From: Crateriforma spongiae
Lineage (GTDB): Bacteria > Planctomycetota > Planctomycetia > Pirellulales > Pirellulaceae
Length of the DNA stretch: 64,000 nt
Direction: 5' to 3'
Assembly (NCBI RefSeq): GCF_012290005.1
Contig: NZ_JAAXMS010000001.1
Location: 1,054,001-1,118,000, forward strand
Shown: positions 9,800-51,133 of the stretch, one piece after another
Layout: every line of letters starts with the position of its first letter
How positions within the stretch are numbered: position 1 is the first letter of the stretch
Position numbers and translations under genes: made by a program
The notes under the pieces: generated by a model
Seen by the model: only the letters and a program-made list of their open reading frames with translations
Database searches by the model: none
What the model was told of the DNA's origin: nothing

Positions 9800-10294
9800 T
9801 CACTGCGAATCGCTGATCGGGTTTGCGAACCAGACCCGATCGTTGCCATAGCCGTCGCGAAAATGGATGACTGGGGTGCCATCGTCCGAATCAGCGGATA
9901 CCAAGGCTCCGGCAAACATCACGCGGCTGATTCCGTCATCTGATGCGGATGAAAAAGCCGGATGATCCTTGGTGATGATCCGATCATCGCTGTGGATCGC
10001 GCCCAGTTCCGATGAGTCGTCGATGACGCTGTTCTGGTCATCGTCGTAGCCACGTTGACCTGCGGCCGAATCGGAGCCGATCCATAGCAACGCATCGGCG
10101 TCGGGATCAAAGTGAACGCTGGTCAATGATGTTGTGCCGGAACCGGGCGAATCGATGGAATGATACTCGTCACCGAATTGCAGGCACTGTCCGATGCGCA
10201 GAACACCGAACAGGACGGCCAACGTCATTGCTGCGGCGATGAACGGCATTGGCGTCGTCGATAGGGACGCCGCCGGGTCATGTTTGCGATCCAT
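9800..10294 (-). CDS. Small membrane-anchored protein ending the pseudopilin operon
   Basis: A 164-residue protein of unknown function. One hydrophobic helix (about residues 17-33) follows a short charged start, giving a cytoplasmic tip and an exported domain of about 130 residues. That domain is rich in Asp, Ser and Gly and contains DPDADALLWIGSD and YDDDQNSVIDDSSELG, acidic segments like those in the neighbouring pseudopilins. It starts 9 bp after the stop of the GspJ-like gene on the same strand, so it belongs to that operon. It lacks the FTLVE prepilin motif. A tip or cargo component is a guess from position only. Confidence 0.7.
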   Translation of the reverse strand: MDRKHDPAASLSTTPMPFIAAAMTLAVLFGVLRIGQCLQFGDEYHSIDSPGSGTTSLTSVHFDPDADALLWIGSDSAAGQRGYDDDQNSVIDDSSELGAIHSDDRIITKDHPAFSSASDDGISRVMFAGALVSADSDDGTPVIHFRDGYGNDRVWFANPISDSQ

Positions 10295-10303
10295 CGCTCG
10301 GGC

Positions 10304-12424
10304 TCAGTCTCCGAAGTACTTCGCGACGGACGATTGTTCGACCTCGCGAACCTGAGTGTTCTCCACTCGGATCTCGATACTGATGGCAGGCAAACCTCTG
10401 GCAAACGGTGGTGCCGTCTCTTTTTCCCCGATGGCTTTGCTGCCGAAGGAGTTTCCCCCAGCGGAACTTGTGACGTCATCCAATCCGTTGGTCGATGGAT
10501 CCACCGAGGCGGCATTGCCTGGCAGAGTCGCTGGGGGCGTGCCGTCGCCGTTGTTCAGCCACCATAGCGTTCCTTCGTGCAATCGCGAATTTGGATCCTG
10601 TCGTGGCCACTGCAGATATCCATCACTTTCGTAGTCGTCGGTGAAGGTGTCAAAAGCGGGTTGGAACAAGACGATGCTGCCGCGATTGGTAATCATGCGA
10701 CCGGAATAAAGGAACGGATCGCCGTATTGCGGGGCGTGCCGGGCAAATTGGTTGTATCCCGAAAACCGAGTGTTCGGCAGCAACGCGATATTCATCGCCG
10801 GACGGCGTTGGTTCGAAAAGGCGTGGTATCGAAGGTTTCTGTTCCCTCGAATCGCACCGCCAGCCTGGACGGTGTAGGCCAAGTCGACAAAGGCACCCTG
10901 CACGCCGTTGACCGGCTGTTGCCGACCGGTTGCCGGTGTGGTGACTGACTGGATCAGTGTGTCGTAGTACGCTGGGTCATTGGGCGTGACCACCCGGTCA
11001 TCCGAGCCCAACGCCTGGTATTGGCCGTCAATTCCGGGGGACACATAGGTCTGTGCACCCGGATCGAAAGCCTTGACGTCAAACGCCAGAAGGTTGGTCA
11101 GTAGGACGTCTTCGCCAACGCGTTCAATTCCCCAGCCATCGCCGAACATGTCGGTGTGAGATAGATCTTGTCCCAAAATGAATTCCGGCCGAAGAAAACC
11201 ATTCATGTAAGTCGGCGTGACGAATCGTGAACGCACCTGTCGCAGCGGGCTTCCGCCAAACGGCGGTGCCACCGGAGGTGTCATCTGCGTTCCCGCTTGC
11301 AAGATCGGCGCGACACCGCCCAGAGCTAACAGCGGCATCGACGTGTAACCATTGGTTCCGTTGGGCGGACTGATGCCCAAAATCGTCTGTGGAACACGAA
11401 CGTGCGCAAACCGGTTGTGGGGCTGTTGCAATTCGTCCAACGAGTTCGCGAAAACGAAATTACTTGGTGCACCATTGGGCAGCAATCGTCGGCCCATCGA
11501 AAGGTCGCACTGTTGGTGAATCGGCCCCATCCCGATCAGCCAAGCCAGCGCCGCCTGTGATTGGTTCAGCCCGTTGCCGCCCGGCGTCTTGATCGCCGGC
11601 AAACCGGTACTGGCATCCGAAGGCCATGTATCTGGTTGCAGATAGGTGTAGTTGCCACTGGTGAATTGCGGCAATGCAGGCCCCAGCGTTGTGACACCGT
11701 TCAAATTCAAATCGGGGCGGATCAACAACACGCGGCGGTGCAGCTTCATTTGATCCGGGATGCCGTTGCCGTCCAGATCGACGATCGTCGGTTGTGCGGC
11801 GGTATCGTAGACGTGGATGGATTGACCGTTGTTCGCGGTGTCCAGTGACGTCTGATATTGCGGGCTGACGTAGTAGATGATTTCCGCATACTGCGACGTG
11901 ATCACCACGGGATCCAGCGCACCGGCGACGCCGCCGGGAAAATTCGCCGCGTTGTAGGCGACGCCGTTGGCTTCGGCCGTCTTGGCGTCCAGGACAAAAC
12001 GCGGCACTTTGCCGGTGAATGGAGATCCATCGGGAGCCTTGGCGGTGAATGCCAGGTAATCGTCGTAATCACCGAAACGCGAATCCTGCAACGTGTACTC
12101 GTTGTCCTCGGCCGGGGCCCGGCCCATCAGCGTTGCGGTGATGTTGCTGATCGGGCCGTCAAAATAGACCAGGTAGCCTTCGCCCTTGTCGCTGCCCGTT
12201 GCCGCTGGGTTGGCGGTGCATCGTGACAGTTCATCACGCATGCGGCGGGTCACGTCACGGACACGGCTGCTAAGGTCCACTTGCGCACGGCTGACGCGTA
12301 CCTGTTGCCCGACTTTACCGAACGACGAGGCGAGTGCGGCCATCAGCAACAGCGTGATCGCCATCGCGACCATCATTTCGACCAGCGTAAAGCCGACCGC
12401 GATCGATTTTCGGTTCACTCTCAT
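10304..12424 (-). CDS. Oversized GspJ-like minor pseudopilin
   Basis: A 706-residue prepilin-like protein. Its amino end has a short basic leader, a Gly at the cleavage site and GFTLVEMMVAMAITLLLM, so mature Phe1 and Glu5 are present; prepilin peptidase would cut after the Gly. The helix continues into an amphipathic stem (VDLSSRVRDVTRRMRDELSR), typical of GspJ/PulJ, which sits in the tip complex of the type II secretion pseudopilus. Ordinary GspJ is about 200 residues; here some 600 residues of unrecognised exported domain follow, including a DLDGNGIPD calcium-type loop. The start overlaps the stop of the GspK-like gene (ATGA), so the two are translationally coupled. Confidence 0.85.
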   Translation of the reverse strand: MRVNRKSIAVGFTLVEMMVAMAITLLLMAALASSFGKVGQQVRVSRAQVDLSSRVRDVTRRMRDELSRCTANPAATGSDKGEGYLVYFDGPISNITATLMGRAPAEDNEYTLQDSRFGDYDDYLAFTAKAPDGSPFTGKVPRFVLDAKTAEANGVAYNAANFPGGVAGALDPVVITSQYAEIIYYVSPQYQTSLDTANNGQSIHVYDTAAQPTIVDLDGNGIPDQMKLHRRVLLIRPDLNLNGVTTLGPALPQFTSGNYTYLQPDTWPSDASTGLPAIKTPGGNGLNQSQAALAWLIGMGPIHQQCDLSMGRRLLPNGAPSNFVFANSLDELQQPHNRFAHVRVPQTILGISPPNGTNGYTSMPLLALGGVAPILQAGTQMTPPVAPPFGGSPLRQVRSRFVTPTYMNGFLRPEFILGQDLSHTDMFGDGWGIERVGEDVLLTNLLAFDVKAFDPGAQTYVSPGIDGQYQALGSDDRVVTPNDPAYYDTLIQSVTTPATGRQQPVNGVQGAFVDLAYTVQAGGAIRGNRNLRYHAFSNQRRPAMNIALLPNTRFSGYNQFARHAPQYGDPFLYSGRMITNRGSIVLFQPAFDTFTDDYESDGYLQWPRQDPNSRLHEGTLWWLNNGDGTPPATLPGNAASVDPSTNGLDDVTSSAGGNSFGSKAIGEKETAPPFARGLPAISIEIRVENTQVREVEQSSVAKYFGD

Positions 12425-15400
12425 TTCTCCACCTGCGAATAGATCACGGTGTTGGCAGCATTGATGTCGGTCCCCGGGCCGGCAAATCCGACGGGGATCG
12501 ATCGATCAATGACATAGGTCGCCCGGTAACGCCGTTGGCGACCGATGTCGGCGTTGTATTCTTGGCCCAATTGCGACGTCGCACTATCAACTTCGAAATA
12601 GCCGATCGTCATCCGCACCATGAAGGTCTGGGATTGGGTGCTGACCAAGTTCGGAATCCGCACCAGCGAATGCAGGTCCATGAACGAACTGCGGCTGCGG
12701 TCGGCGTGGGCCGGTCCGGCGCCGTCGGGGGTGAACAGCGGGTCAAAGTCCGACGTTTCCCCGGCTCGCGCGATGGTGCCTTCGGCCGGTGTTCGGTTGC
12801 GAAGTGCGTTCGCGTTGCCGCCCGATAGGGTCGGCGCCAAATCGGCATCCAGGCTGGTGCGGAAGATGCCGGCGAACTGTGTCGGCGAATCTTCCGTCAG
12901 CGAATTGGGATCGAAGTTGTAGGGTTGCGATTGAATCTGTGGCGGTAACGTCGTCGTGTCGACGATTCGTGAAGCATTTCCGCCGGCGGGCGTGTATCCG
13001 CGTCGCGATTCCAAAAACTCTTGATAGCGAGTCGATCCTTGCGCCGTTTGTGTCCGTTCGCTTGACGACAGGTGGTTGAACATCAACCCCATCCACACCG
13101 GATATTCGCCAATCGTGTTGAGGTTCAAACGGCCCTGACGGCGGCCGTCCCAGATCTTGTTGTGCGGTGGCAACAGATAGTCGCTCAGTTTTTTCCGGGC
13201 ATGCAAGAACGTCGAATTGGGATTGGGCACGTAGGGAACGCGTTCCGGATTGATGAATTCGATTTCACCGCGGTAACGCGGCGGCGTGGCCACGAAATCA
13301 AAGATGCGAAGGGCCTGCGAAGCATCGTCTTCGGTTTCGTCCGATTGGAAGAAGTTCAGCAAATGCCCGAACGGAGCACGGAAGGTCGTCGGCGGATCCG
13401 ATGATGCATTGGGATCGTACGGGCTGTTGGTTGCCGATGCGTCATTCAGAGTGAATTCCTCGAACAACCTGCCTTGCGAACACGCCGGCACCATCATGAC
13501 TTCCATCGGTGACGCAAAGTCGCGGTTCAACCATTCGTGCACCGCAAACGGAGTCAACGGCAGCCCGCGATTGCTGTTCGCACCAGTTTCAACCACGGTC
13601 ACATCGTCCGCCACCACACCGTTGCTGTTCGCCGGATTGCGAACGTCGCCGAACGCCAGGTTCAAGAAGTTGAACGTGTGGTCCAGGCCTTCTGGATTAG
13701 TATCGCCGTCGGAATCGGCGAAAGCGAAATACGTCGATGCGGTGGTATCGATGGGCAGCGTGGCCGGATCGTTCACCGTGTAGCTAAACAAAACATGGGA
13801 ACCCGTTCCGTTGGATGGAACACCGGTGCGTTGGCGGCTGCCTGCAAGGTAGCGCGTGTCCACGTCGTTACCATTCACGGCCGGCGGACCCACATTGGAT
13901 TCGCTTTCTTCGCCACTGAAGACGGTCAAATCCAAGGTCATTTGATCGATGGTGATGTACGGATTCGTCACGCGATCAAACGCACGTGTCGGATCGGCCA
14001 AACGCTGCAGAAATGCCGTTCGATAGTTTTTCACCGTGCCCAGCATCGGTTCAGCCGGGTTGGCGCTGGTCGCCAAATCCAAAGTCAGGTCACCCACCGG
14101 GGCATTGGACAGCAGCAGATCCAGCGGCTGGTCACGCGGCGGGTCATTGATCGGGTCATCCCAGTCGATGTACGAATCGATCAATGGGTATTCGGTGCTG
14201 TTGCTGGAATCGTATTGCGCCGTCGGTTCGGGATAGTAACCCGTCGGTGTCGGCAGCGGTTCGCTGATGTTCAGACCAATGCCGTGCACCGGACGCGCCG
14301 TGGCTTGCCAGCCAAGCGGTTCGGCGAACGCCCCCATGATCAGCGATAAACCGGGCTGAGACAGACTGGTCGTGTTGGGCGTGTTCAGCGGAGTCGTGTC
14401 AAAGTTGTAATGGGCCAGTCCGATCACCGGGTTGGCATTGCTGATCTCGAATCGCTGGGGGCTGTTCCCCGCGGGCGCGACATCACCACTGGACACTTGG
14501 CTTCCCAAGTAAGTGACCGGTCGTGGTGCAAGCGTCAGGTATTGTTCACCCAGCAGGCGGGCGTTGTTGCTGCCGCTGCGATTGAAGAACACTCGGGCCA
14601 CACGGTTCGGGTCACCGGTCAACCACGGCATGACATGGGTGACGTTTTCCAGTTCGGCAACGCTTCCGTAATCCGTGAAGAAGATGAACCGTTCCAGATT
14701 CAACCGGCGGTTGTCTTGATTCAGCTCGTCGAAAGGACGGAAGTTCTGGGTGTGTTGCGAATTGCCGTCGTTGTACTGCGTGCCGATCGGGTTGCGTGGC
14801 GTCCCAGGGTCAAAGGAATAGCTGTCGGCAAGGTTCAGTGTGCCCGATTGAATCTGGTCACGAATGTACTGCGGTGAAATTTCGCGGTCGTTCGGCGAAT
14901 TGGCGCCGTCGTAGTGAGGTTCGCTGATGGCGATTCGCCAAACCGGAACCTCGACCACACCATTGGTCGATGGCGTGGTGACCGTCTTGTCCAGTTCCAG
15001 TCGATATTGGCCGCCCTGGTACCGATACAACTCCATCGGCAATCCCGGGGCGTGTTGTTGGTCGTTGTTGTTCAAAACACGTTGACGCGGGTTGAACAAT
15101 TCCAAGAACAGCGAGCCTTGAGGGATTCGGAGTTGGTCGGTATCGGGATCGGGAGGGGTGTCCGATTTGTCGGATCCCGATCCGCCGCCTTCCTGTTTGG
15201 TGTCGCGGACTCGGACGTCGTGCAGCGCCAAAGATTCGCTGAACAGCAAGTCGGGGCTTTCAACGCCCCAAACCATCGGGCTGGCCGGTTGGTTTCCCGT
15301 GACTGTGTTGCCGTCGAAATCGATGTTCGCATATCCGTCGCCATCGGTGTCGTACGTGACGTTCCAATTTCCGTCCAGCGGATTTCGGTCGTACACGAAC

Positions 15401-18400
15401 GGTGTCATGATCGAATCGGGATCACGATAATCGACGACGTTCACGGCCCATTGGGCCAAACGACGTGCACGGTATTCCGCCGGATCGGTGTTGCCCTGAT
15501 CGGCAACCGGGAAATCGTATCCGTCGCCGGTGATCGCCATCATCAACACGTAGATGTTTCGGGCCAACAACGTTCGCGGGTTTTCTAACGCGACGTTGTA
15601 GCTTGGACCGTCGATCCCGTTGGTGCCACTGGGGCGGACGTTGGAAAGATAGGTGGCGGTGTTGTTCGCATTGCCCGCGTTCGGGTATGCCCGCGTTTCG
15701 TAATAGACCTCCAGCGGTTCATCGATGACACCGTTGCCTTCGCTGGCTTCATCGGTGCTGCCGTTGGCGTTATCGTCCACGCCGGAACGCGAGCCACGTC
15801 CGTTTTCGATCGTATCGGCGGCCAGCTGACCGAAGGCGTCGTCAACGCCGTTACCGAACGGGCGGTTCAGGTCCAGTTTTTGGCCGAGTTTCAGTTCACG
15901 CGGCAAGATCGCATCCAAGTACGCCTGTTCGTTCTGCAGATCGGTTTCGCTGCTGATCCGGCCGTCGCTGTTCAAACGCTGCAGCAGCATTTCCATCAGT
16001 GCCAGCGGTGCACCCTGTGACCGCGATCCTTCCGGGGGCAGTGCCGCCGGAACGTCCAGAGAGGTGCTGACGGTCGTCAAATTGCGGGCCGCCGATGCGG
16101 GTAATCCCGTCAGACGCGAAATCTGTTCCATGCGGCTGAACAGTGACTGGTCGGCCAAGCCCACCATGTCTTTGGTCCGATAGGCGTTGTCGCCCGACAG
16201 AACGCCGCGGGGATCCATTTCGTAGGGATCGTCGATGTTTTCGTCGATCTGCGTTCGGACCGGTGGACCGGCGTCATAGTTGCGAACAATCGTTCCGGAA
16301 CCGGCGACGAACAGGCGGCCGCTGCGGCTAAGTCCGTAACCACCACGCCCGAACGGGTCGGCCGACAATCCGGTGCCAGCCCCCAGCCAACGTGAACCGA
16401 CACGTGGCCGATTGATCAGCGAGTCCAGCAGGTCATTGCCCTGCAATCCCGGGTACGCGTAAGGCCATGCCGGAGCGATCCCCAGACGATTCTGATAACG
16501 GCCGGTCAATAGGTTCGAATACTGCGTTCCACCGGCAAGCACCTGTGCATCGGCGTGAACCACATTGCCATAGGGCAAAACGATTTCCGCCGGCCCGAAT
16601 CCAATGCCCCGATAAATCTCTCGATTCACATTGTTGCCGGTCCGAGGGGTTGGATCGAACCACGGTTCGTTCTCCGATGAACTGAGATCCACCGGCGAAT
16701 CAATCGTCCCGTGGGCATTGACATTCAAGCGTGCCGAAAGGTCTTCGATCAGCGGGGCGACCAACGGTTTGATCAGCCGGCCATCAGGGGCAGTCTTCGT
16801 CGGAAGTCCGAAGTCCACCCAAATGCTATCGGGAACACCGTCACCATCGTTGTCGACATCCCACGGTCCGTTGACCAGGGCGTTGACCAGCTGGTCCAAG
16901 CCGATCATTTGGGGAATGGACCCGGTCGAGCCAGCATCTCTGTCAACCAACAAGGGCGTTGAAAACGCGGGATCCGTATTACCGCCGTTGAACTGTGGAT
17001 TGATCGCGTTGGGCAAAACGTTGTTGTTGGCGTCGGAGAATTGACCCTGTGCAAACGACAGCGGACGGAACGTGGCCCGACGAATCGCCTCCACGATCGT
17101 TTCCAGTTCGGCTCGGCTGGCGCTGGAAAGATCGTATTGATTGACGATGTAATTGATCAGCGCCGGTCGGTGAAACGACGGAATGATCCGACGTTGTCCG
17201 TTGCCGTCGACATAAGTGTGTGACAGGAACCAGTTTTGGAAATCGGCTGCGTCATACGATTCGTCATAATCGCCGTCGATGCCTTGAACCATACGGAACT
17301 GATTGTTCGCCTGATTCAAGTATTCCATGTCAGCGGACTTGACCGCCAATGGACCCTGACGCGGGAAACTGGGATTGAACAAATTACGGTTCGAATCCAC
17401 GGCTCGCGGTTGGAAGGCAACAGGAATCGCTGCGGTCGAATCAGCATACGGAACTGGCGTGTCCTGATCGACATTGTTGCCGTCGAATCCGACACCGCCA
17501 CCATTCATCGGCTGGCCGTTGATGATAAGCCGAAACCCGGTTTCCCCAGCCGCACCCGCGTTGGCGTATTGTCGCGTCGACATCCAGCCGGGCGTGGTGC
17601 TGGCGTAGAATAGCGCGGAAACTGCGTAGGGGTCGGGATTCGTAGCGTTCGGAAAATTGAACAGATCGCCGACGGTCAATTCAGTGCCGTCGGACAATGC
17701 GACCTGCAGGTCCGGGTCCAATGCGATGTAAACGCTCAACCGAGTCGAACGATCGTTGGCCGCATCGGGACGCCAACCGATGGACCGAATGATGCGAAAC
17801 GAATTCCCAGCCAGGGGCCCCGATGCGAGGGTCAACACGCGACCGGAAAAGAAGTCGTCCACACCAAAGACACTGTCGCGTGGATTGATTTGTTCGTTCG
17901 GTGTGTTTGCGTGGTCGTCGGGATAGGTGCCGAACAAAGGCATTGCCCAAGTATCGTTCGGGTTCGGCGTGGTCAGATTCAAGACTTGGCGAATACCGTT
18001 TTCGTTGTGCTGAAAGAACGACAACGGAATACGGACAAAGCCGCCGCCGACGTGCATTGGACGATCCGCCGCGACACTGGATTCATTGAACGGTCCGGTT
18101 TGATCGATTTCACGCACCGCGGTCTGGACCGCATCGGTGATTCCGTACAAATCCGACAGTAAGTCTTCCCCGTACATCGGATGCAGCGGATCGGACGTTC
18201 CACGGATCAGTGTGGCGACGGCATCTTTGAAGTCTTCGGACGGTTCGGTCTTGCGCATTTCACGCGACGCGATCCCGAAGGCCGACTGTCGCGAACTGCT
18301 GGTGTAGGTCACATAGGTCACCACCAGAATGCCCAGAAAGGCCAGCATGCTAAGCACGACCAACAGGATGATTCCTGACCGCCGGTTGTCACCGCAGGGG

Positions 18401-18468
18401 CGAACCGGTCGCGATTGGAACGATCGCGTCATGTTTCGTGTTTGTCGTTTCAAAGTGGGTCCGTTCAT
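12421..18468 (-). CDS. Giant GspK-like minor pseudopilin (about 2015 residues)
   Basis: A very long exported protein with one amino-terminal helix: a basic leader, then RRSGIILLVVLSMLAFLGILV. The helix lacks the Glu5 of other pseudopilins, as GspK proteins do. GspK caps the pseudopilus tip but is usually about 330 residues. The rest is acidic and poor in Cys, with several Asp-rich calcium-type loops (DNDGDGVPDSIWVD, TDGDGYANIDFDG) and segments common in planctomycete GspK-like proteins (AQWAVNVVDYRDPDSIM, GRLNLNTIGEYPVW). I recognise no enzyme domain. ATG 18468 is preferred; a GTG lies 9 bp upstream. It overlaps the GspJ-like gene by 4 bp and follows the GspI-like gene by 159 bp, the largest gap inside the pseudopilin block. 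Confidence 0.8.
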   Translation of the reverse strand: MNGPTLKRQTRNMTRSFQSRPVRPCGDNRRSGIILLVVLSMLAFLGILVVTYVTYTSSSRQSAFGIASREMRKTEPSEDFKDAVATLIRGTSDPLHPMYGEDLLSDLYGITDAVQTAVREIDQTGPFNESSVAADRPMHVGGGFVRIPLSFFQHNENGIRQVLNLTTPNPNDTWAMPLFGTYPDDHANTPNEQINPRDSVFGVDDFFSGRVLTLASGPLAGNSFRIIRSIGWRPDAANDRSTRLSVYIALDPDLQVALSDGTELTVGDLFNFPNATNPDPYAVSALFYASTTPGWMSTRQYANAGAAGETGFRLIINGQPMNGGGVGFDGNNVDQDTPVPYADSTAAIPVAFQPRAVDSNRNLFNPSFPRQGPLAVKSADMEYLNQANNQFRMVQGIDGDYDESYDAADFQNWFLSHTYVDGNGQRRIIPSFHRPALINYIVNQYDLSSASRAELETIVEAIRRATFRPLSFAQGQFSDANNNVLPNAINPQFNGGNTDPAFSTPLLVDRDAGSTGSIPQMIGLDQLVNALVNGPWDVDNDGDGVPDSIWVDFGLPTKTAPDGRLIKPLVAPLIEDLSARLNVNAHGTIDSPVDLSSSENEPWFDPTPRTGNNVNREIYRGIGFGPAEIVLPYGNVVHADAQVLAGGTQYSNLLTGRYQNRLGIAPAWPYAYPGLQGNDLLDSLINRPRVGSRWLGAGTGLSADPFGRGGYGLSRSGRLFVAGSGTIVRNYDAGPPVRTQIDENIDDPYEMDPRGVLSGDNAYRTKDMVGLADQSLFSRMEQISRLTGLPASAARNLTTVSTSLDVPAALPPEGSRSQGAPLALMEMLLQRLNSDGRISSETDLQNEQAYLDAILPRELKLGQKLDLNRPFGNGVDDAFGQLAADTIENGRGSRSGVDDNANGSTDEASEGNGVIDEPLEVYYETRAYPNAGNANNTATYLSNVRPSGTNGIDGPSYNVALENPRTLLARNIYVLMMAITGDGYDFPVADQGNTDPAEYRARRLAQWAVNVVDYRDPDSIMTPFVYDRNPLDGNWNVTYDTDGDGYANIDFDGNTVTGNQPASPMVWGVESPDLLFSESLALHDVRVRDTKQEGGGSGSDKSDTPPDPDTDQLRIPQGSLFLELFNPRQRVLNNNDQQHAPGLPMELYRYQGGQYRLELDKTVTTPSTNGVVEVPVWRIAISEPHYDGANSPNDREISPQYIRDQIQSGTLNLADSYSFDPGTPRNPIGTQYNDGNSQHTQNFRPFDELNQDNRRLNLERFIFFTDYGSVAELENVTHVMPWLTGDPNRVARVFFNRSGSNNARLLGEQYLTLAPRPVTYLGSQVSSGDVAPAGNSPQRFEISNANPVIGLAHYNFDTTPLNTPNTTSLSQPGLSLIMGAFAEPLGWQATARPVHGIGLNISEPLPTPTGYYPEPTAQYDSSNSTEYPLIDSYIDWDDPINDPPRDQPLDLLLSNAPVGDLTLDLATSANPAEPMLGTVKNYRTAFLQRLADPTRAFDRVTNPYITIDQMTLDLTVFSGEESESNVGPPAVNGNDVDTRYLAGSRQRTGVPSNGTGSHVLFSYTVNDPATLPIDTTASTYFAFADSDGDTNPEGLDHTFNFLNLAFGDVRNPANSNGVVADDVTVVETGANSNRGLPLTPFAVHEWLNRDFASPMEVMMVPACSQGRLFEEFTLNDASATNSPYDPNASSDPPTTFRAPFGHLLNFFQSDETEDDASQALRIFDFVATPPRYRGEIEFINPERVPYVPNPNSTFLHARKKLSDYLLPPHNKIWDGRRQGRLNLNTIGEYPVWMGLMFNHLSSSERTQTAQGSTRYQEFLESRRGYTPAGGNASRIVDTTTLPPQIQSQPYNFDPNSLTEDSPTQFAGIFRTSLDADLAPTLSGGNANALRNRTPAEGTIARAGETSDFDPLFTPDGAGPAHADRSRSSFMDLHSLVRIPNLVSTQSQTFMVRMTIGYFEVDSATSQLGQEYNADIGRQRRYRATYVIDRSIPVGFAGPGTDINAANTVIYSQVEK

Positions 18469-18627
18469 GGTGTTCACCGAGGGATCCGAGGGGGATCGTT
18501 CGCCGTTCGTTGCCGGTGTGCAACGTCAGCGTTCGGTCACGTTCGCGTGTTCCGTGCGGTGCGCGACAGATCAAAGTTTGAAAAGCTGGATCGATCCGCG
18601 GTGCCCTGCGTTTCGATCCGATGGTTC

Positions 18628-20079
18628 TTAGGGGCGGCGGATGGTTCGTTCGGTCACTGAAACGACTCCGCGTACCAGGGTCATCACCGTGTTGTCGTCG
18701 ACGAAACCGTCTGCCGGGCCCGGCGTATCGATGAGATCATTGGCTAGAGAGTCGAATCCGAAACTCCAGTCGGGGCCATCGAGCATCAAACGCATATGCC
18801 ACACTTCGTAGGGTGTCCCGTGCACGGGATCGTTGAAGATGATGCGATCGGGTTCGCCACTTGTCGTTTGGCCGACGACGCCCGCCACTCGGAACCAGCG
18901 GTGAACTTCGCCGCCGGGAATGCCGGGCAAGGTATCGCGTGACATCATCACCCATTGGCCGGGAATGATCGTCGGATCCACATAAGTGGACATCACAATT
19001 TCCACGGTACCGCCAGCGCCGCCGGTAAACCCGCCGGCGTAGGTGACGTAGGCCACACGTTCTTCGGTCGCGTTTGCTTCGGGGGCATCGGCGTAGACGC
19101 CGTTCAGCGTGCCTTCGGGGCCCGCGTTGGGATAAGTGAAGAAAGTGCGATCGCGATTTTCGATCACGGCCACGGACACCGATGAAGTTGAACCACCGGG
19201 GATTTCGTTAACGGTGGCGATCCAACTGTAGGTGCCTTCGGTTTGTGCTTTGCCGTAAGTCATCACCGTACCGGTGATCGCTTCGCCCGCGATGATCGGT
19301 GCCAGTGTTTGGTCCTTGGGCTTGGTGATATTCAGATCATTGCCCGATTCGGAAAGGTAGTTGGCTTCGGTTCCCGAAATGAATTGTCCCGCCGTACTGA
19401 CCCCACGATTGATCGTCACACGGGTCAGACGCGGCATCGGTGGCCACTGATTCGATGCCGTCACCGGCAACGATGGGTTCACCAGCGGGTTGTAATTCGC
19501 TTTGTAATACGGGAATCGTATTCGACGGTGTCCGTTGGTTCCCGCGGTGAAGTAACTGACGTACTTTCCGTCCGGCGAATTGGCGGCGTTGTAGGGCAAA
19601 TACCCGTTTGGGTCGGCGACAAACAGTGGGTCGATACAAACCGAGTTGCTGCTCAGGTTCATGTTGCCGACGCCCTGCCAAAGCGTCGGATCTTGCCCCC
19701 GTCCCGGACGTCGCTGGTAATCGGGGTGCATCAGGTCGTTCAAGAAGGTCGGGGTGTTTTCCAGAATCGCAAAACGTTGTCCACCGTCGGAATACTCTGG
19801 AACCATTGATCCCAGTTTGGCGAAATCTGGTTGCAACACCCAGCGTCCCGGTTGGCCGTAGTTGCGTGCTTGAAATTCGGCCAAAGCGGCGTTGGCCAGC
19901 GAGGTCGCATTGTTCAGGCTGACCGCATCTTTGGCTTGCCGGCCGGCGATTGGCAGGATCGATACCAACCCGACCAGCCCGATCAAGATGATGCCCATGG
20001 CGAAAGCGACTTCGACCAAGGTCACACCCTGCCTGTCGCGACCACCGGCGTGTCTGCGGAAAAGTTTGAAATCACTCAT
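18628..20079 (-). CDS. Oversized GspI/PilV-like pseudopilin
   Basis: A 483-residue prepilin-like protein starting at ATG 20079, which overlaps the stop of the upstream GspH-like gene as TAATG. A basic leader ends in RQG, followed by VTLVEVAFAMGIILIGLVGL: Glu5 is present and Val replaces the usual Phe1. The Glu-x-hydrophobic-AMGI pattern and position fit GspI/PilV minor pseudopilins, which are normally about 125 residues. About 430 residues of exported domain follow with no motif I can name. It lies third of six in the pseudopilin block. Confidence 0.82.
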   Translation of the reverse strand: MSDFKLFRRHAGGRDRQGVTLVEVAFAMGIILIGLVGLVSILPIAGRQAKDAVSLNNATSLANAALAEFQARNYGQPGRWVLQPDFAKLGSMVPEYSDGGQRFAILENTPTFLNDLMHPDYQRRPGRGQDPTLWQGVGNMNLSSNSVCIDPLFVADPNGYLPYNAANSPDGKYVSYFTAGTNGHRRIRFPYYKANYNPLVNPSLPVTASNQWPPMPRLTRVTINRGVSTAGQFISGTEANYLSESGNDLNITKPKDQTLAPIIAGEAITGTVMTYGKAQTEGTYSWIATVNEIPGGSTSSVSVAVIENRDRTFFTYPNAGPEGTLNGVYADAPEANATEERVAYVTYAGGFTGGAGGTVEIVMSTYVDPTIIPGQWVMMSRDTLPGIPGGEVHRWFRVAGVVGQTTSGEPDRIIFNDPVHGTPYEVWHMRLMLDGPDWSFGFDSLANDLIDTPGPADGFVDDNTVMTLVRGVVSVTERTIRRP

Positions 20080-21467
20080 TACAGGTCCTCCAACGTGTCG
20101 GAGTTGAAGGCGTACGTTCGGGCCACCAAAGCCGCGTTGGCCATGTTTTGTTCGATGGTCAGATTCGGATCGACCGGTCGCGTTGACGCGATCGGGGATA
20201 CCGCGACGTTGCCGTTGCTGGGGTTGATCACGATCCAAACGCTATCGCCGTCCAGAATGTTGGACACCGCGCGGTCCTCGGTGGAAAACGGGGCGTCCGG
20301 GCGGATGCCGTCGGTCTTGCCCAACAAGAAAAAGATCTGGCCGGTCGGACGTCGCTCGTTGAACGCGTAGGGGGCCGCACCGGGCATGGCGGACCCGACC
20401 GACTGGACGCTGCCGTCGGGGGCGAAAACGATCGCGATGTTCAGGAAAGTGATCGGGTTGTTCGGGTCGGTCGAATTCATCGCCACGTTGCCCGCGGTGG
20501 CGTCGATGAAGTAAGGCGAAAATTCGATGCCCGCGGGCAGGCCGCCTGAATAGGTTGCCGTGCCCGAAAAATTCAGGTCGATCGCCATGCCCTTCATCAA
20601 GTTCATCGGCGAAGTTTGCGACGGCGATGGCTGGCGGAAAATCTGAAAACGCGAGGCCCGCCAAGTGTTGTCGGCCGTTGCGTTGACGGCACCGGTCGGC
20701 AACTCAAAGGTCGGGAATGCGCCACCACCGATTTCAACAAAGCTTCGCGAATCAAATCGGATCTTGATGTAAGGTCGGTCGTCGGTGGGCAATGCCGGCA
20801 GCGGCAACGCGTTCCACTTGGGATAGTTCAAATTGTTTCGATTCCATGGCGGCGTGATCGCCCCATAGCTGGCCAAATCCAGATCGTTGGCGTCACTGAA
20901 ACCGATCGCCATGATGCGAACCGGGCGGCTGCCTTCGAAACTGATCAGATCGCCGGCTTTGATCGGTGCCGCGCCGTCATTGGTCGAGTCGCCATCGTTC
21001 AGCACTTGCGCACTGAGCCGTAGCAACGGGTTTTCTTCCTGGCGAAACAGGCAAGCGTTGAATTGACCGGTGCGGGTGGTGCTATTGCTGTTGGCGACCT
21101 GCGGCGTGCTGAAGACGAAATCATCATGAATGATCACGCACCGGGTGTCGGGGGATTCACCGCCATAGGACGGCACCCCGTTGGTCATGCGAAGACGCGT
21201 GCTGTATGACCTGGCGAACGGATCGGTCGTGCCCGCTCGTTCGATCACCACGCCGACCGGACGTCCGGTGGCGATCGCACGATCCCGTGCGGTCGTCAGA
21301 TAGGCGACGACCTGCCGTGAGGTTTGTGATTCTTTTTGGTCTTTCAGCGTTTGCTTGATGGCGGGCAAACCGATGCCGGCCAACAGCATCAACAAGACCA
21401 TGACCACCATGATTTCGACCAACGTGAATGCACGTCGGTGCTTCGGTCGTGACGCGTGGATACTCAT
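20079..21467 (-). CDS. Oversized GspH/FimT-like pseudopilin
   Basis: A 462-residue prepilin-like protein. The leader ends in RRA and is followed by FTLVEIMVVMVLLMLLAGIG with Glu5; Ala rather than Gly precedes the cut, which prepilin peptidases tolerate less well. The stem VAYLTTARDRAIATGRPVGVVI is the classic GspH/FimT continuation. GspH is usually about 170 residues; here a large exported domain is added. It overlaps both neighbours (ATGA with the gene upstream, TAATG with the gene downstream), so translation of this block is tightly linked. Confidence 0.85.
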   Translation of the reverse strand: MSIHASRPKHRRAFTLVEIMVVMVLLMLLAGIGLPAIKQTLKDQKESQTSRQVVAYLTTARDRAIATGRPVGVVIERAGTTDPFARSYSTRLRMTNGVPSYGGESPDTRCVIIHDDFVFSTPQVANSNSTTRTGQFNACLFRQEENPLLRLSAQVLNDGDSTNDGAAPIKAGDLISFEGSRPVRIMAIGFSDANDLDLASYGAITPPWNRNNLNYPKWNALPLPALPTDDRPYIKIRFDSRSFVEIGGGAFPTFELPTGAVNATADNTWRASRFQIFRQPSPSQTSPMNLMKGMAIDLNFSGTATYSGGLPAGIEFSPYFIDATAGNVAMNSTDPNNPITFLNIAIVFAPDGSVQSVGSAMPGAAPYAFNERRPTGQIFFLLGKTDGIRPDAPFSTEDRAVSNILDGDSVWIVINPSNGNVAVSPIASTRPVDPNLTIEQNMANAALVARTYAFNSDTLEDL

Positions 21468-22816
21468 TGGGCGTCTCCCGTCAGACCGTGGTTGGTGATG
21501 TTGTCCGACAGACCTTCGAAGGATCCGTCACCGTCGGTGTCAAAAACGCCCCCGATTGCACCTGCGGCGCCGTTGTTTTGGACCAGCGACTGTCGCAGGA
21601 ACGGATCAACGTAAAAGAAGTTCTGTGGTCGGCCGGCCGTTTGATTACCAACCCATGCTTGAGTGTTGGGCCAGGTTTCCAACGGATAAATCACATCGAA
21701 ATTGTTGTTGTCGCTGCGGGTCTGAAAGAACCGCAGATCAAACACTCCGTCCGGACCCGCCGAGACAACCAGTGGTTGAAGCGATCGAGGCAGCGGCTGA
21801 GCGTTCACCGCCGAAGAAGCGTTTTCCGCATACGCAAAGTCGGCACGGAACACGTCGTACTCCTCCGGTTCCACGTTGGCCAACACTGTCGGCGGGGCCG
21901 GGTTAGCCGGTTCGACGTAACCGACCGGCCAGCGGATGAACCCCAGTGGGACACCCCAGGCGTCGACGATTTCCGGCACTCCGTCACCGTCGGTGTCTTC
22001 GACGTGGCCGCGTGGAAGCATTTCGATCGCAGACGTGCCGCTGATGAACGTCGTCGACATGATCAGGTACAAACATTCGGCCGGGCTGTTGGCCGGGCTC
22101 CATGATGTCGTGAACCCGAGTTGGTTGTTCGGGACGATCCGTGGGATACGTGCGCGGTAAGCCGACAACTGGCCAGGAACGTTGTGGTTTTCCGTCCGAA
22201 AATCGTTGTCGGTGTCGTTCCACCAGCTGTAACGTGCGACCGTCACGCTTGGGATAAAGGTGCCGTCAGGTTGTCGATCGGACACTCGGACGGGGCCCGC
22301 AATGGTGACTGGGTCGGTCCAGACACCGCTGATCCATTCGTCCGGCTGACCATCCTTGTTGCGGTCGGATGTCAGATCGGGACTTAAGACGAAGAACGGA
22401 TCGTTGGTGGCGTTGGTCACCCGATTGTCAGTGATGCGAATCAGGTCGCTGTATCGATCCGGCAGGTACATGCGAATCGCGTCGCGCCGCATCTGCAGAC
22501 GAACCCGCTCGGCTTCATCGGCCGGAATCGATGGGATCCGCTGGGTGGTCCGAGCAACGTTATGTTCCAGCGGCAACGGCAGCGAATTCAATTCATCCAG
22601 TCGTTGACGGATGACGCCATCCACGACGCTGATGACGGCTTGGGTCCGAGCGATGCGTGATGACCGGCGTGCGGTGGCCATCATCGAAGCACCCATGCCC
22701 AACAGCAGGCCGCCGACGACCAGCACGACCATGATTTCCACCAGCGTGAACGCCGATCGTGGTCGTTGCCGCCAGCGTCGCAGGCGGATCGGTCGTGGTT
22801 TGAACAAGACAAGCAT
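21464..22816 (-). CDS. Prepilin-type protein with GspG-like features
   Basis: About 450 residues from ATG 22816; a GTG at 22873 would add 19. A strongly basic leader precedes AFTLVEIMVVLVVGGLLLGM (Glu5, Ala at the cut). The stem carries QAVISVVDGVIRQRLDELN. In the exported part, DTDGDGVPEIVDAWGVPLG resembles the Asp-Trp-Gly loop of major pseudopilin GspG, where calcium is bound. Two more Asp-rich loops occur (DRNKDGQPDEW and DTDGDGSFEG), the latter close to the carboxyl end. Its role could be a second major-type subunit or another minor one. It is coupled to the GspH-like gene by an ATGA overlap. Confidence 0.8.
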   Translation of the reverse strand: MLVLFKPRPIRLRRWRQRPRSAFTLVEIMVVLVVGGLLLGMGASMMATARRSSRIARTQAVISVVDGVIRQRLDELNSLPLPLEHNVARTTQRIPSIPADEAERVRLQMRRDAIRMYLPDRYSDLIRITDNRVTNATNDPFFVLSPDLTSDRNKDGQPDEWISGVWTDPVTIAGPVRVSDRQPDGTFIPSVTVARYSWWNDTDNDFRTENHNVPGQLSAYRARIPRIVPNNQLGFTTSWSPANSPAECLYLIMSTTFISGTSAIEMLPRGHVEDTDGDGVPEIVDAWGVPLGFIRWPVGYVEPANPAPPTVLANVEPEEYDVFRADFAYAENASSAVNAQPLPRSLQPLVVSAGPDGVFDLRFFQTRSDNNNFDVIYPLETWPNTQAWVGNQTAGRPQNFFYVDPFLRQSLVQNNGAAGAIGGVFDTDGDGSFEGLSDNITNHGLTGDAQ

Positions 22817-22888
22817 GACAGTCGACAAGAAAAGAGGGATCGGTTGGGTCGGGCGCGCCAACGGCGTTGGCACCGCGCCGCGGGCCGA

Positions 22889-24085
22889 TCAGGTTTCCAA
22901 ATCGCTTTCCAGTGTTCGGGAGCTGAAGTTGGTGATGTTGTCCAAATGGGCGTTGCCTTCGGATCCGTTGACGGCACCGTCTTCTTGGAAGCCGTCCATA
23001 CCGGTGATCAAAGTTTGCTGAGGCGACGTCGCGTTGCTGTTGATCGTCATCGCCTTGCCCGTCTTTTCGATGAAGTACGCGGGCAAATCGTTGGCGGCCA
23101 CGGTGTTTTGTGCCGCCGTCATGGGCATGCGGATCAGCGTGCCGAACGTGTCGTCGGTACCAGCCGCGATGATCTGGAATGACTTGTCGTTTGCGAACTT
23201 CCAACTTTTCAGCGACGCATCCGGTTCGGTGCCCCATCCGCTGCCGGTCGGCGAAACGGGCACGTTCGTCTTGTACGGACGGACGCCACCAAAATCGGGG
23301 TTGTAATACCCGTTGTATGGATTGGCACCGGCGACCAACGTCGATACGGCGTCAGGAATGCCGCCATAGGTTCGCGATTCGAAGTAGACGAACGGTGCGG
23401 CGCGACCATCCATCTGATAGGCGGGGATCAAGTCACCGTCGTCGGTCGAATTCACTTGACCACCGGTTTCGGCTGCGGCCGCGTTGATGGTCAAACGTGC
23501 GACGTCGAATTCGAACAGTGCATCGTTGCGCGAAACGTTGTATTGAAAGTCGGCAACGTTCGTGGTCGTCGTGTATGCCGCATTGTTTTGTGCCAAGCGA
23601 CATTCAAAAGGTCCACCGGCTCCGGTCAATGGATAGGCTGCGTCGTCGCTGAATCCACCCAAGAACAAAACCAACGCTTCGCTGCGATCGATCGCGGCGG
23701 GGTTGAAGCGGCCGTTGCCGTCGTGACACATGTTGTAAAGCAGCGTCAGGTCGCGTTGCGACATTCGCGGGAAGGCTTTCTTCAGGTGTCGCTGGGCGAT
23801 CGTCCAGCTGCTCATGTCCGGCGGGTAATCGCCGTACTTCAAGTTGTATTGTTCCACCGAGTCGGCCAATTGCGTGATTTCGACTTTCAAAGCCGTTTCG
23901 CGACCGGTGGCGATCACATTGGTGACCGCAGGAATCGCGATCCCGGCCAAGATGCCGATGATCACAATCACGACCAGGATTTCCACCAGGGTGAACCCGT
24001 GCCGAGCCGCCAGTGATTGGCGGGCCGCTGGATCGATGTGACGATCCGGCGAAGAGGCGTCGTGATGAACTTGCGTTGTTGACAT
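22889..24085 (-). CDS. GspG-like prepilin (first of the pseudopilin block)
   Basis: A 398-residue prepilin-like protein from ATG 24085 (the frame is open to 24178, but those residues look non-coding). An unusually long leader of about 30 residues ends in RHG, followed by FTLVEILVVIVIIGILAGIA, the purest type IV pilin/pseudopilin helix in the window. The stem TALKVEITQLADSVEQYNLKYGDYP is the GspG pattern (the YKLDNGRYP-type segment of major pseudopilins). Normal GspG has about 145 residues. Its position directly after gspF supports a major-subunit role. Alternative: a type IV pilin. Confidence 0.85.
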   Translation of the reverse strand: MSTTQVHHDASSPDRHIDPAARQSLAARHGFTLVEILVVIVIIGILAGIAIPAVTNVIATGRETALKVEITQLADSVEQYNLKYGDYPPDMSSWTIAQRHLKKAFPRMSQRDLTLLYNMCHDGNGRFNPAAIDRSEALVLFLGGFSDDAAYPLTGAGGPFECRLAQNNAAYTTTTNVADFQYNVSRNDALFEFDVARLTINAAAAETGGQVNSTDDGDLIPAYQMDGRAAPFVYFESRTYGGIPDAVSTLVAGANPYNGYYNPDFGGVRPYKTNVPVSPTGSGWGTEPDASLKSWKFANDKSFQIIAAGTDDTFGTLIRMPMTAAQNTVAANDLPAYFIEKTGKAMTINSNATSPQQTLITGMDGFQEDGAVNGSEGNAHLDNITNFSSRTLESDLET

Positions 24086-33082: not shown

Positions 33083-36000
33083 ATGTCGCGAAACGCTCTT
33101 CGACAACTGATTGCCAGCCTGACCGGTGGTTTCCCGCACAAGGATGCCGTGATGAAGCAGCCGCGTGGCGATGGCGATTTGGCCAGCCGTGGGCCCTTGC
33201 GGTTGGAAATGCTGGAACGTCGGCAGTTGATGGCCGGCGACGTGGAGATGATGTTCACCGACGGCAACGCCGACGGGTTGCCCGATGCGGGGGCCACCGC
33301 GACGGCACAAAGCGATGTCTTGGCGGTGACCGGTCAGGCGGAAGGTGAATCGGAGCCAGATCTGGTTCAGTTTGCGAAGAATCTGGAAGCCGCGGGCGTG
33401 CAATTCTTCGGCGCCGCCTGGTGTCCGGCCTGTACCCAGCAGAAAGAATTGTTCGAGGACGGTGGCGACGAACTGCCCTTTGTCGAAGTCACCAATCCGG
33501 ACCGAACGCTGAACAGCATCGGCATCGCCGAGGGCATCTCACAATTCCCAACTTGGCGGTTCCCCGACGACACCGAGGCGACCGGGGTCTTGGATTTGAC
33601 GACCATCAGCTCCCGCAGCGGCGTGCCGATTCCGCAAAGTGAAACGCCGACGTTCGAGACCATTGGTTCACAAACGGTTCGCATCGGATCGCCGTTGCAT
33701 GTCGTCGTGGATGGTTACGATCCCGACGGCAGCGTGCTGACGACCACGGTCACGGTGGAAGATCCGTCCTTGATCGAAGCGACCGTGATTTCGGGCAACC
33801 GTTCGTTGCGTTTGGATGTTGCCGGGTTTGGTGACATGGTGTTCGAGCTGTTCGAACAACGGGCACCGGTTCCCGCCGGACGCGTTGCGGATTTGGCGGA
33901 ATCTGGATTCTATGACGGCATCATCTTTCACCGCGTGGTCAACGGCTTTGTGATCCAGGCCGGTGACCCGACCGGAACGGGAACCAGCGGATCGACCTTG
34001 GGCAGTTTCGACGACCAATTCCATCCCGATCTGCAGCACAACCGTGACGGGATCCTGTCGTTCGCCAAGACCTCGGACGATACGAACAATTCGCAGTTCT
34101 TCATCACCGAGACTGACACACGGCATCTGGACTTCAACCACTCGATCTTTGGCCAGTTGGTCGAAGGCGAAGACGTCCGTGAAGCGATCAGCAATATGGA
34201 AACCGATCCGCCGGCCAGCCAGGGCGGTGGTGCCCCGACGACCGACATCGTGATCGAAGATGCTTCGGTCTTTACCGACACCGAAAACAGCGTCGTGATG
34301 TTCAAAGCGGTCGGCGGGACGGGAACGACCAATGTCACCATCACGGTCACCGACGAAGACGGCAACACGCACAGCGAAGTGATTCCGGTGACGGTGGTCG
34401 CCGATACGGGCAGCAGTTCTGATTCACAGCCATTCTTGGGTGACATCAACGACCCGGTCACCTCCGCAGTCGACACGCCGGCCCAGTTGCAGTTGTCGGC
34501 CGTGGATGTCGAAGGCGACGCGGTTCGGTACAGCGGTTCGATCGTCAGCGGCCAAGGCAACGCGACGCTGAACGTGGATTCGACGACCGGTCTGGTCACA
34601 GTGACGCCTGCTTCGGGGTTCACCGGCACCGTGGATGTCAACTTGACCGTGGCGGCCGCCTCCGGTGCAACGGGCAGTGACAACCAGGTCGTGACGTTCG
34701 AGTTTGTGGAATCGCAGTTGTCCGCACCCACGGGATTGGACTTGTTGGCCACCAGTGACAGCGGATCCAGCGACAGTGACAACGTGACCAATGAGGGCAC
34801 GTTGTCCTTCACCGTCACCGGTGTGGAATCGGGGGACACGGTTGAAATCATCAACACCGACGGCGATGCGGTGATCGGTTCGGCGGTTGCCGCCGGCAGC
34901 ACGGTCACGATCACGACGTCGAACATCGCCGCGCTGGGCGACGGCAGTTACACGCTTGCGGCTCGGCGTAGCAACGGCGGTTCCAGCAGCGGCAACAGTG
35001 CGACCCTGACGGTGACCTACGACAACACGGGCCCGGCGACGGTCGGCGACACGGCCACGACCCAGGCCAACGTCGGGACGCAGTACATCACCAACCTGAT
35101 CAGCAGTGAAGAAGGCAGCGGGCTGGTTTATTCGTTGATCTCGTCGCCCACCGGCGCGACCATCAACCCGGCGACGGGCCAAATCACTTGGGATCCGCAG
35201 GCCGCCGACGTGGGAACTGTCGACTTTGACATCCGGCTGACCGACTTGGCCGGCAACGCGACCGATGACAGTTTCAGTGTCACCGTCAGCGAACCAGCGG
35301 TCGCGGGCGTGCGACTGGAAATCACGGACTTGGACGGAAACGTCATCACCAGTGTTGCCAGTGGCGAAGAATTCTTGCTGCGGATGTACGGCCAGGACTT
35401 GCGACCCGGCATCGATCGACGCGGGGTCTTTGCAGCATTCGCCGACATCTTGTTTGACGCCAATCTGATTCAACCGGTCAGCGGGGCGACGATCCAGTAC
35501 GGCAGCGGATTCAATACCGTCCAAGACGGGACTTTCGCCAGCGGGCTGATCGACGAACTTGGTGCGGCCCAGTCCAACACGGTCCCCAGTGACGAAAGCG
35601 AAAGCCTTGTCGCCACCATCCGCATGGAAGCGATCGCCAGCGGGACGGTCAACATCACCAGTGAACCGGCCGACGACTCGGGCAGTGAAACGTTGTTGTA
35701 TCTAAGCGACGAACGAATTCCGGCCGCCAGCGTCGCTTACGGCAACATCTCCTTGGCGATCGACCAGAACTTTACGGTCGTTGATGACACGTTCACCGTG
35801 GACGAAGACAGCACATCCAACACGCTGGACGTCTTGGACAACGACACCGCGGTCGCCGGCACCACGCTGACGATCGTCTCGGTCACTCAGCCGACCACCG
35901 GCGGCGCGGTATCGATCAGCAACGGCGAATTGATCTTCACGCCCACCGCGGACTTCGTCGGCGAAGTCGTCTTCAGCTATCGCGTGGCCAACAGCGATGG

Positions 36001-46774: not shown

Positions 46775-46791
46775 GAATTCACCTCCACCGA
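46775..46791 (-). promoter_or_regulatory. Strong ribosome-binding site deciding the giant-gene start
   Basis: On the minus strand GGTGGAGGTGAATTC directly precedes ATG 46774. Such a full Shine-Dalgarno match is rare in this window and supports this start over the ATG at 46795. Confidence 0.7.
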
Positions 46792-50796: not shown

Positions 50797-51133
50797 CAAC
50801 GAATGAAACGGGACAAGGGTGATGGCGTGCGACGCCGGGATGTCGGGTCGCACTCTTTGCGGCGTCGGGCGTTGGCGGTCCCGATTTCGAACGCAGTTAA
50901 AGTCGCCTGCAGAGCCCCCAGTCTACGCAAACATCAACGTCGGGGTAGCAAACTGTCCCTTTCCAACAACCCCTTCGTCACCAAGTGTCGGCGTGAAGGT
51001 GACAACCGTCAAAACCGGAAAATCCCCACCCCGCCCGCAGCCGGCGGCGAAGGTCCTACGACACAGTCATGACAACAGATCGGCACGAAATGGTTCAGGT
51101 GCGACCCTGGACCAGTCCGCAGCGGCCAAAGGT
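50797..51133. other. Gap upstream of the giant-protein operon
   Basis: This 337-bp region contains the upstream sequence of the giant-protein operon and the end of the next minus-strand gene. I see no gene, clear promoter boxes or strong hairpin. Confidence 0.4.

Follow-up and report, generated by a model that had tools for sequence, protein, structure and literature searches.

What would a planctomycete build with a set of pilin-like proteins that are all several times larger than their counterparts in known systems? This question is raised by an operon of Crateriforma spongiae (contig NZ_JAAXMS010000001.1, positions 1,054,001 to 1,118,000 of the forward strand; this stretch of 64,000 nucleotides (nt), in which all locus coordinates are counted, is called the window), where six pilin-like genes, designated here G, G2, H, I, K and J after the types of pseudopilin that they resemble, together span 10304-24085 on the minus strand. 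An earlier note on this DNA had proposed an enlarged secretion pseudopilus or a specialised fibre, and the six reading frames that it listed (398, 450, 462, 483, about 2015 and 706 amino acids (aa)) are all present. Every subunit is 2-6 times the usual size, and we consider it on balance probable that the operon encodes a retractable type IV filament found across the class to which this planctomycete belongs, with the whole subunit set enlarged and a likely role as an adhesive or capture fibre.

The six subunits and their linked machinery

Judged by their prepilin-type N-termini and by the linked extension ATPase and platform, the six genes can be placed in the type IV filament superfamily. 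A prepilin motif with glutamate at position +5 was found in G, G2, H, I and J, with G, G2, H and J above the cut-off of the Pfam family N_methyl and I just below it, and a regular expression recovered the motif in most homologues of each (42/44 for G, 42/45 for G2, 48/51 for H and for I, and 26/27 for J). K has a GspK-like hydrophobic start (G/IILLV) with no Glu5, and no glutamate occurs in this segment in the 58 K N-termini that show one (60 rows); the window K gave no N_methyl, other Pfam or NCBIfam match up to E 0.1. Motif reading of the frames thus bore out the amino ends previously assigned as GspG-, G-like-, GspH-, GspI-, GspK- and GspJ-type, Glu5 being missing in K alone. The G, H, I, J and K types are recognisable by their N-termini, the fold of G and the gene order, with equivalog cut-offs not reached, and the GspG-like label of G2 is based on N-terminal matches and on motifs read by eye.

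The claim that the subunits are abnormally large holds when they are compared with two T2SS-like (type II secretion system) clusters elsewhere in the same genome, at C1:396-408 kb and at about C3:91-102 kb. The T2SSG-positive G proteins of these clusters have 194 aa (C1) and 144 aa (C3), and the proteins at the K position, which have no T2SSK match at E 0.001 and were named by position and N-terminus, have 459 and 337 aa; the C1 cluster also encodes a T2SSJ-positive J of 391 aa.

The order of transcription is PilB1, PilT, PilB2, PilC/GspF (the platform, F), G, G2, H, I, K, J and an open reading frame (ORF) of 164 aa (Table 1). Both PilB-type ATPases carry MshEN domains, associated with cyclic di-GMP (c-di-GMP), and PilB2 passes the c-di-GMP motif model NF053729 (45.1 against a cut-off of 38) and falls slightly short of the PilB cut-off of TIGR02538 (636.5 against 675.65). 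The description of the six genes as mostly overlapping is just fair, as three of the five junctions overlap (G2/H by 4 nt, H/I by 1 nt and K/J by 4 nt) and gaps remain at G/G2 (72 nt from the ATG of the 450-aa frame, 15 nt from an upstream GTG) and at I/K (about 150 nt). Similarly, the interval first assigned to the operon, 9800-24085, holds all six pilin genes and also takes in the 164-aa ORF, which is not a pilin. This ORF has no Pfam or NCBIfam match up to E 0.1, and ORFs like it (143-231 aa) lie 3' of J in 8 of the 80 related loci described below. A promoter scan was uninformative (2 found against 6.6 expected).

Table 1. Genes of the cluster, in order of transcription, with their positions in the window
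Feature	Description	Position	Strand	Supporting match or motif
PilB1	T2SSE/PilB-type extension ATPase with MshEN, 586 aa	29462..31222	-	Pfam T2SSE 429 bits, MshEN 86 bits
PilT	Retraction ATPase, 420 aa	27966..29228	-	TIGR01420 446.8 bits against cut-off 319.1
PilB2	Second PilB/GspE-type ATPase with c-di-GMP-binding motif, 570 aa	26199..27911	-	T2SSE and MshEN
PilC/GspF	Inner-membrane platform of PilC/GspF type, 478 aa	24175..25611	-	T2SSF 209 bits
G	GspG-like, 398 aa, ATG at 24085, probable shaft subunit	22889..24085	-	N_methyl
G2	Second GspG-like, 450 aa, ATG at 22816, DxDGDG loop before DxWG motif	21464..22816	-	N_methyl
H	GspH-type, 462 aa	20079..21467	-	TIGR01708 GspH N-terminal match E 3e-10, below cut-off
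I	GspI/PilV-type, 483 aa, ATG at 20079	18628..20079	-	Weak TIGR02598/TIGR02523 matches
K	Giant GspK-like, 2018 aa from GTG or 2015 aa from next ATG	12421..18477	-	No Glu5
J	GspJ-type, 706 aa	10304..12424	-	N_methyl; TIGR02599 Verru_Chthon C N-terminal match E 2.5e-5, below cut-off
164-aa ORF	Single transmembrane protein with D-rich stretch, 3' of J, not pilin	9800..10294	-	No Pfam or NCBIfam match

Conservation across the class and beyond

The best 80 of at least 268 related loci were analysed, all planctomycete except two labelled only 'bacterium', with lengths taken from automatic ORF calls, some of which are too long or split. F-G-G2-H-I stands directly upstream of K in 35 of the 39 loci whose K starts at least 6.5 kb in; of the other four, one shows no recognised gene there, another has F and PilB2 in exchanged order, a third contains an additional G2 and the fourth has a split I. 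The enlargement recurs with the order, the median lengths being 369.5 aa for G (44 frames), 394 for G2 (45), 426 for H (51), 459 for I (51), 676 for J (26) and 1916 for K (60 frames, range 1457-2458; only K frames above 1400 aa are counted, and the three uncut frames thereby excluded are fragments of 136-233 aa). Where K starts at least 9 kb in (n = 35), F and PilB2 were each found in 34 loci, and a complete or cut PilT in 29. Moreover, in a separate count of 11 relatives, from which G065 was excluded as its contig ends at J, PilB, PilT and the platform adjoin the pilins in nine (G121, G167, G181, G069, G152, G048, G194, G137 and G024), PilT orthologues (65-79% identity) hold the matching place in nine, and a PilB1 orthologue heads the cluster in eight, the stretch being too short in one and PilB1 absent in two.

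The position of J varies: it lies directly 3' of K in 21 of the 46 loci that extend far enough downstream, and no J was found beside K in the other 25. In one family (f3), J stands between I and K in the nine genomes read, as it also does in Planctopirus limnophila. In G167, G339 and G381, which have K and J on one contig, J is more than 1 Mb from K. A J profile matched all 12 class genomes searched, in frames of 506-688 aa and with best E values of 5e-61 or lower; in P. limnophila the best match extends over positions 5-390 of 585 only, and two other genomes give theirs in pieces. A PDB sequence search with J returned chance or N-terminal matches only. Because J is unlinked in some lineages, the idea of a six-gene operon is slightly weakened and that of a six-subunit set strengthened. 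The search for the same six-gene order in other Planctomycetota, which the earlier note had suggested, therefore succeeded for five subunits that travel together and in part for J. As a side observation, the gene 3' of K in several f3 genomes encodes a prepilin-type protein (e.g. L059:12891-13994), and one that was tested matches DUF1559.

A search with the single K sequence matched 14 of 199 phylum genomes, one of which (G150) has its match in an ordinary-size pseudopilin cluster and likely encodes a true small GspK. A K profile of eight rows (A5), supplied by the class genomes G000, G105, G087, G152, G048 and G024 and by G065, matched 139 of 392 phylum genomes and 39 of the 40 class genomes, or 33 of the 34 that are independent of the profile, class membership being read from the kinship label. 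The sole class genome with no K profile match, G227, belongs to the same genus as several that match. Outside the class, 100 of 352 genomes matched, mostly by short N-terminal stretches and many in frames of 800-2000 aa, which is a hint of relatives and not a count of them. A lack of joint conservation, which had been named as grounds for rejecting the proposal, was thus not observed, within the limits set by J and by one genus (G105 and G087) discussed below.

Eight further genomes were picked by hand from the K-profile matches and read. In G127, G168, G077 and G337, which share only the phylum, a cluster of ATPase, platform and pilin genes ends in a K-like frame of 1323, 862, 1060 and 1708 aa, respectively. 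These clusters are not uniform. PilT was seen only in G127 and G077, and no J was recognised in either G127 or G168. Of the smaller pilins, those of G168 (185-234 aa) approach ordinary size and those of G077 (218-307 aa) are of modest length. Long K-like frames also occur in G222 and G305, with no cluster in the stretch read, and in G044, where a J-like frame lies nearby. Judged from these frames, the enlargement is complete in the class and graded outside it. The eighth genome, G321, is that of P. limnophila DSM 3776, as 6,000 bases from its second contig show 100% identity to NC_014149.1; it holds the whole cluster, with PilB1 of 565, PilT of 373, PilB2 of 577 and F of 419 aa, followed by pilins of 352 (G), 384 (G2), 363 (H), 468 (I), 566 (J) and 1611 aa (K). 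Genomes with the locus also include Rhodopirellula-type genera and Adhaeretor mobilis HG15A2 (L151).

Separately, the locus L043 of G065, a genome labelled as outside the class, encodes a 1276-aa K-like protein that is close to those of the class and shorter than the class K frames read. Truncation, contamination or transfer are possible explanations; its profile score arises by construction, and the single-sequence search gave E 8.8e-10.

Constraint, fold and possible function of the filament

All six genes show low ratios of nonsynonymous to synonymous substitution (dN/dS) in the congeneric pair G194/G137 (0.03-0.09, the lowest, 0.03, for K); in the pair G069/G048, I, J and K are saturated at synonymous sites, and G, G2 and H give 0.11-0.14. 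Since order and sizes recur in many genomes and dN/dS is 0.03-0.09 in one congeneric pair, the gene set is not due to chance. Besides, the possibility that the long regions are ordinary repeats found no echo in the DNA, as the operon contains no tandem DNA repeats (0 rows).

For G, 41 homologues were aligned, and the resulting model (42 sequences) reached a predicted local distance difference test (pLDDT) score of 83.7 and a predicted template modelling (pTM) score of 0.82. Foldseek gave no match under E 0.001 with this model, and VIA placed four GspG entries first (Z 5.1-5.8), followed by type IV (T4) pilins (Z 2.4-3.0), values under 8 being middling; the best row, 3fu1_B, aligned 96 of 112 residues with a root-mean-square deviation of 2.7 over the model range 56-392. 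Because of these rows, the long N-terminal helix, the profile match of the N-terminal part to PulG and solved T4 pilins, and a conserved GxD...G...DN end, we read the modelled G as a GspG fold enlarged by about 240 residues.

The giant subunit K is less readily modelled, and structure prediction of the exported parts, as the earlier note had advised, was informative for G and of low confidence for residues 1-1096 of K. Alignment of K by hhalign with eight planctomycete GspK-like proteins matched an N-terminal stretch with a probability of 72.6 and, weakly, a GRxNxNT..V motif near the C-terminus; these eight came from 30 loci hit by PF03934 (T2SSK), a family that proved unspecific and matched many frames whose size makes them implausible. 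The K homologues themselves gave no T2SSK match in Pfam, and a PDB sequence search with K returned chance or N-terminal matches only. Invariant columns run along the whole of K in 13 sequences, and along residues 1-1096 in 56 sequences, and stretches near 101-400 and 1201-1300 are missing in about half of the homologues. The order of motifs along K suggests a GspK with large insertions.

From the genes, order, sizes, conservation and constraint observed, we infer how such a filament might assemble and work. A prepilin peptidase (Peptidase_A24 is present in the genome) would trim G, G2, H, I, J and K, and PilB1 and PilB2, acting on the PilC/GspF platform, would polymerise a filament whose shaft would be mainly G, the extra residues making a thicker fibre. 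I, J and K would start and cap the filament, as they do in the T2SS, where they occupy the tip (PMC8179133), and the exported part of K, about 1,950 residues, would then lie at the tip. The linked PilT makes it likely that the filament is retractable, with PilT drawing the fibre back, and the MshEN domains may make extension respond to c-di-GMP.

According to excerpts of published work, fibres on the large crateriform structures of P. limnophila (12 nm) and Gemmata obscuriglobus bind dextran, as seen by gold labelling; these structures were still called 'enigmatic' in 2017 and the uptake system 'still to be characterized' (PMC5394234). In addition, a paper that includes the description of Adhaeretor mobilis has suggested, on the basis of images, that relatives possess machinery resembling type IV pili (PMC8303584). 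Because of the fibre and dextran findings, the pilus-like machinery suggested in relatives and the recurrence of a PilT-bearing cluster across the class, a role as capture fibre is proposed, and the specialised fibre of the earlier note is still plausible. We regard the cluster as a candidate source of the 12-nm fibres by which P. limnophila binds dextran. A bolder proposal, tentative and in our estimate rather doubtful, is that Planctomycetia possess a distinct retractable, c-di-GMP-gated, polymer-harvesting filament of giant pilins that forms the 12-nm fibres of the crateriform pits and delivers polysaccharides to the cell, its tip protein K being among the largest pilin-like proteins known. 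If true, this would supply the missing molecular basis of macromolecule uptake in planctomycetes. The locus offers a concrete, conserved candidate in P. limnophila, where single deletions of three PilQ-like genes have been possible and a mutant lacking all three exists, the excerpted account describing no fibre phenotype (PMC11958385). Besides, as the window K has no N_methyl match, the locus suggests that pilin-like subunits can be far larger than N_methyl-based surveys would list. A literature search limited to open-licence PMC papers, seen in part, found no description of the operon, which is not proof of its absence from print.

Several observations weigh against the retractable capture filament. 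No secretin or alignment proteins (PilM-N-O-P-Q) were identified for the cluster, nor were PilM-N-O-P-Q found linked to it. In G105 and G087, which belong to one genus, no PilB, PilT or platform stands beside the pilins, so that the linkage is not universal. Other GspF-type platforms and 57 N_methyl places exist in the genome, and the fibres could come from those genes; the operon is a candidate for them, and the position of K at the tip is inferred by analogy with GspK of the T2SS. The model of K residues 1-1096 (56 sequences) is poor (pLDDT 62.4, with 360 of 1096 residues under pLDDT 50), and Foldseek and VIA searches with it returned unrelated proteins (Z up to 5.3) with GspK absent, which is uninformative either way. 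Moreover, no carbohydrate-binding or other known domain was recognised in the exported parts of the window proteins and K homologues.

The nearest competing explanation is a T2SS variant, in which a periplasmic pseudopilus piston with oversized subunits would export large planctomycete proteins. The GspG/H/I/J/K-type set with a K that lacks Glu5 is what such a system would have, the fold of G is nearer to GspG than to T4 pilins, and the platform scores slightly higher as GspF (TIGR02120, 369.5 bits against a cut-off of 424) than as PilC (358.8), below both cut-offs. However, PilT and a second PilB stand in the operon and in nine of the 11 relatives, no secretin lies in the window, and two T2SS-like clusters of ordinary size are found elsewhere in the genome. 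For these reasons a type IV pilus-like filament fits better than the enlarged secretion pseudopilus first suggested, and we regard the T2SS variant as unlikely. It gains slightly more weight, and the retractable filament loses as much, because one genus does not have the ATPases and PilT beside its pilins and because the absence of GspC, GspL and GspM is of limited scope: none was recognised among the window proteins scanned, which do not include every ORF, and these families diverge.

It is quite improbable, in our view, that the pilin ends are real and the long exported parts are a decoration of the lineage, unrelated to assembly or binding, on a pilus of ordinary type IV function. The third of the K model under pLDDT 50, the widely varying length of K, the parts of it missing in many homologues and the near-ordinary pilins of G168 would fit such a decoration, whereas the invariant columns along K, its dN/dS, which is below that of the other five genes in one congeneric pair, and the joint enlargement of the subunits in the class genomes read argue against it. 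A pilus for DNA uptake of the competence type seems very improbable. PilT, PilB, PilC and minor pilins are common to competence pili, but scanning of other proteins of the window revealed no gene specific to competence, and giant GspK-like subunits are not known from described competence pili.

Neighbouring genes and known systems

Within the span of the genome covered by the window no secretin match was found, the nearest lying at C1:1024198, about 30 kb before the window, and eight secretin matches occur elsewhere in the genome; the relatives were searched for homologues of the window's own proteins only. A three-gene set on contig 7 (499 aa, 220 aa and a secretin of 829 aa) resembles PilMN-PilO-PilQ by its layout and was dropped as a candidate; the 499-aa and 220-aa proteins have no Pfam match, and a search of 198 other genomes found no relative of the 499-aa PilMN-like protein. 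In G048, two genes that precede PilB1 were considered as PilM and PilN and turned out to encode metabolic enzymes.

Other pilin-like and very large genes were also observed. A run of 14 N_methyl places, about 1.5-2 kb apart, lies at C4:218653-241418 of G000, where several match DUF1559 and the whole looks like a tandem array of pilin-like genes; the abundance of DUF1559 (PF07596) as a measure of a pilin pool was discarded, as about 12 candidates were scored per genome and the counts are unusable. In the window, two overlapping very large genes on the minus strand (39752-46795 and 46792-50853) encode proteins of 2347 and 1353 aa with no Pfam match at E 0.001, the former with a signal-like start and hydrophobic segments, and a 1598-aa protein on the plus strand (33083-37879) combines a cyclophilin domain with numerous cadherin/Ig-like domains and a Planc_extracel match that falls just short of the cut-off.

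Among known systems, the Verru_Chthon cassette A-D (TIGR02600, TIGR02598, TIGR02599 and TIGR02596) is a possible distant relative. It shares prepilin-type ends with the present set, and J, I and H match its C, B and D at the N-terminus; its A protein is large (profile of 1296 positions), with an N-terminus resembling that of long planctomycete frames. Membership was rejected, as B, C and D scored at best 18.0, 23.7 and 34.2 bits against cut-offs of 51.4, 256.5 and 70, and A was above cut-off in none of 199 genomes. K may be the counterpart of Verru_Chthon A, a tentative lead with weak support. No literature on the cassette was found among open-licence PMC papers. In a separate observation, a single planctomycete genome outside the class can contain three long frames (about 780-1490 aa) whose N-terminus resembles Verru_Chthon A, as in G044, G067, G037 and G131, which would look like a multiplication of cassettes.

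The modular type IV pilins, such as PilB of Streptococcus sanguinis, offer a likeness of another kind, as they join a small pilin module to a large extra module that is likely presented by the filament; as excerpted, a survey counted more than 1,200 of them with N-terminal IPR012902, the one with most added domains having 860 residues (PMC8179133). In contrast, all six subunits are enlarged here, K frames reach 1,457-2,458 aa, and the window K, having no recognised domain or N_methyl match, is one that the survey, as excerpted, would not list. With the type IVa pilus the operon shares the PilB/PilT/PilC cluster, the N_methyl ends and a PilT above cut-off, and it differs in having GspG/H/I/J/K-like, far larger subunits and no linked PilM-N-O-P-Q. 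The T2SS pseudopilus is alike in its subunit types, the GspG fold of its G, a K with no Glu5 and the I-J-K set, whereas the planctomycete operon, with no secretin in the window, encodes much larger subunits, a second GspG-like protein, and two PilBs and a PilT linked to them.

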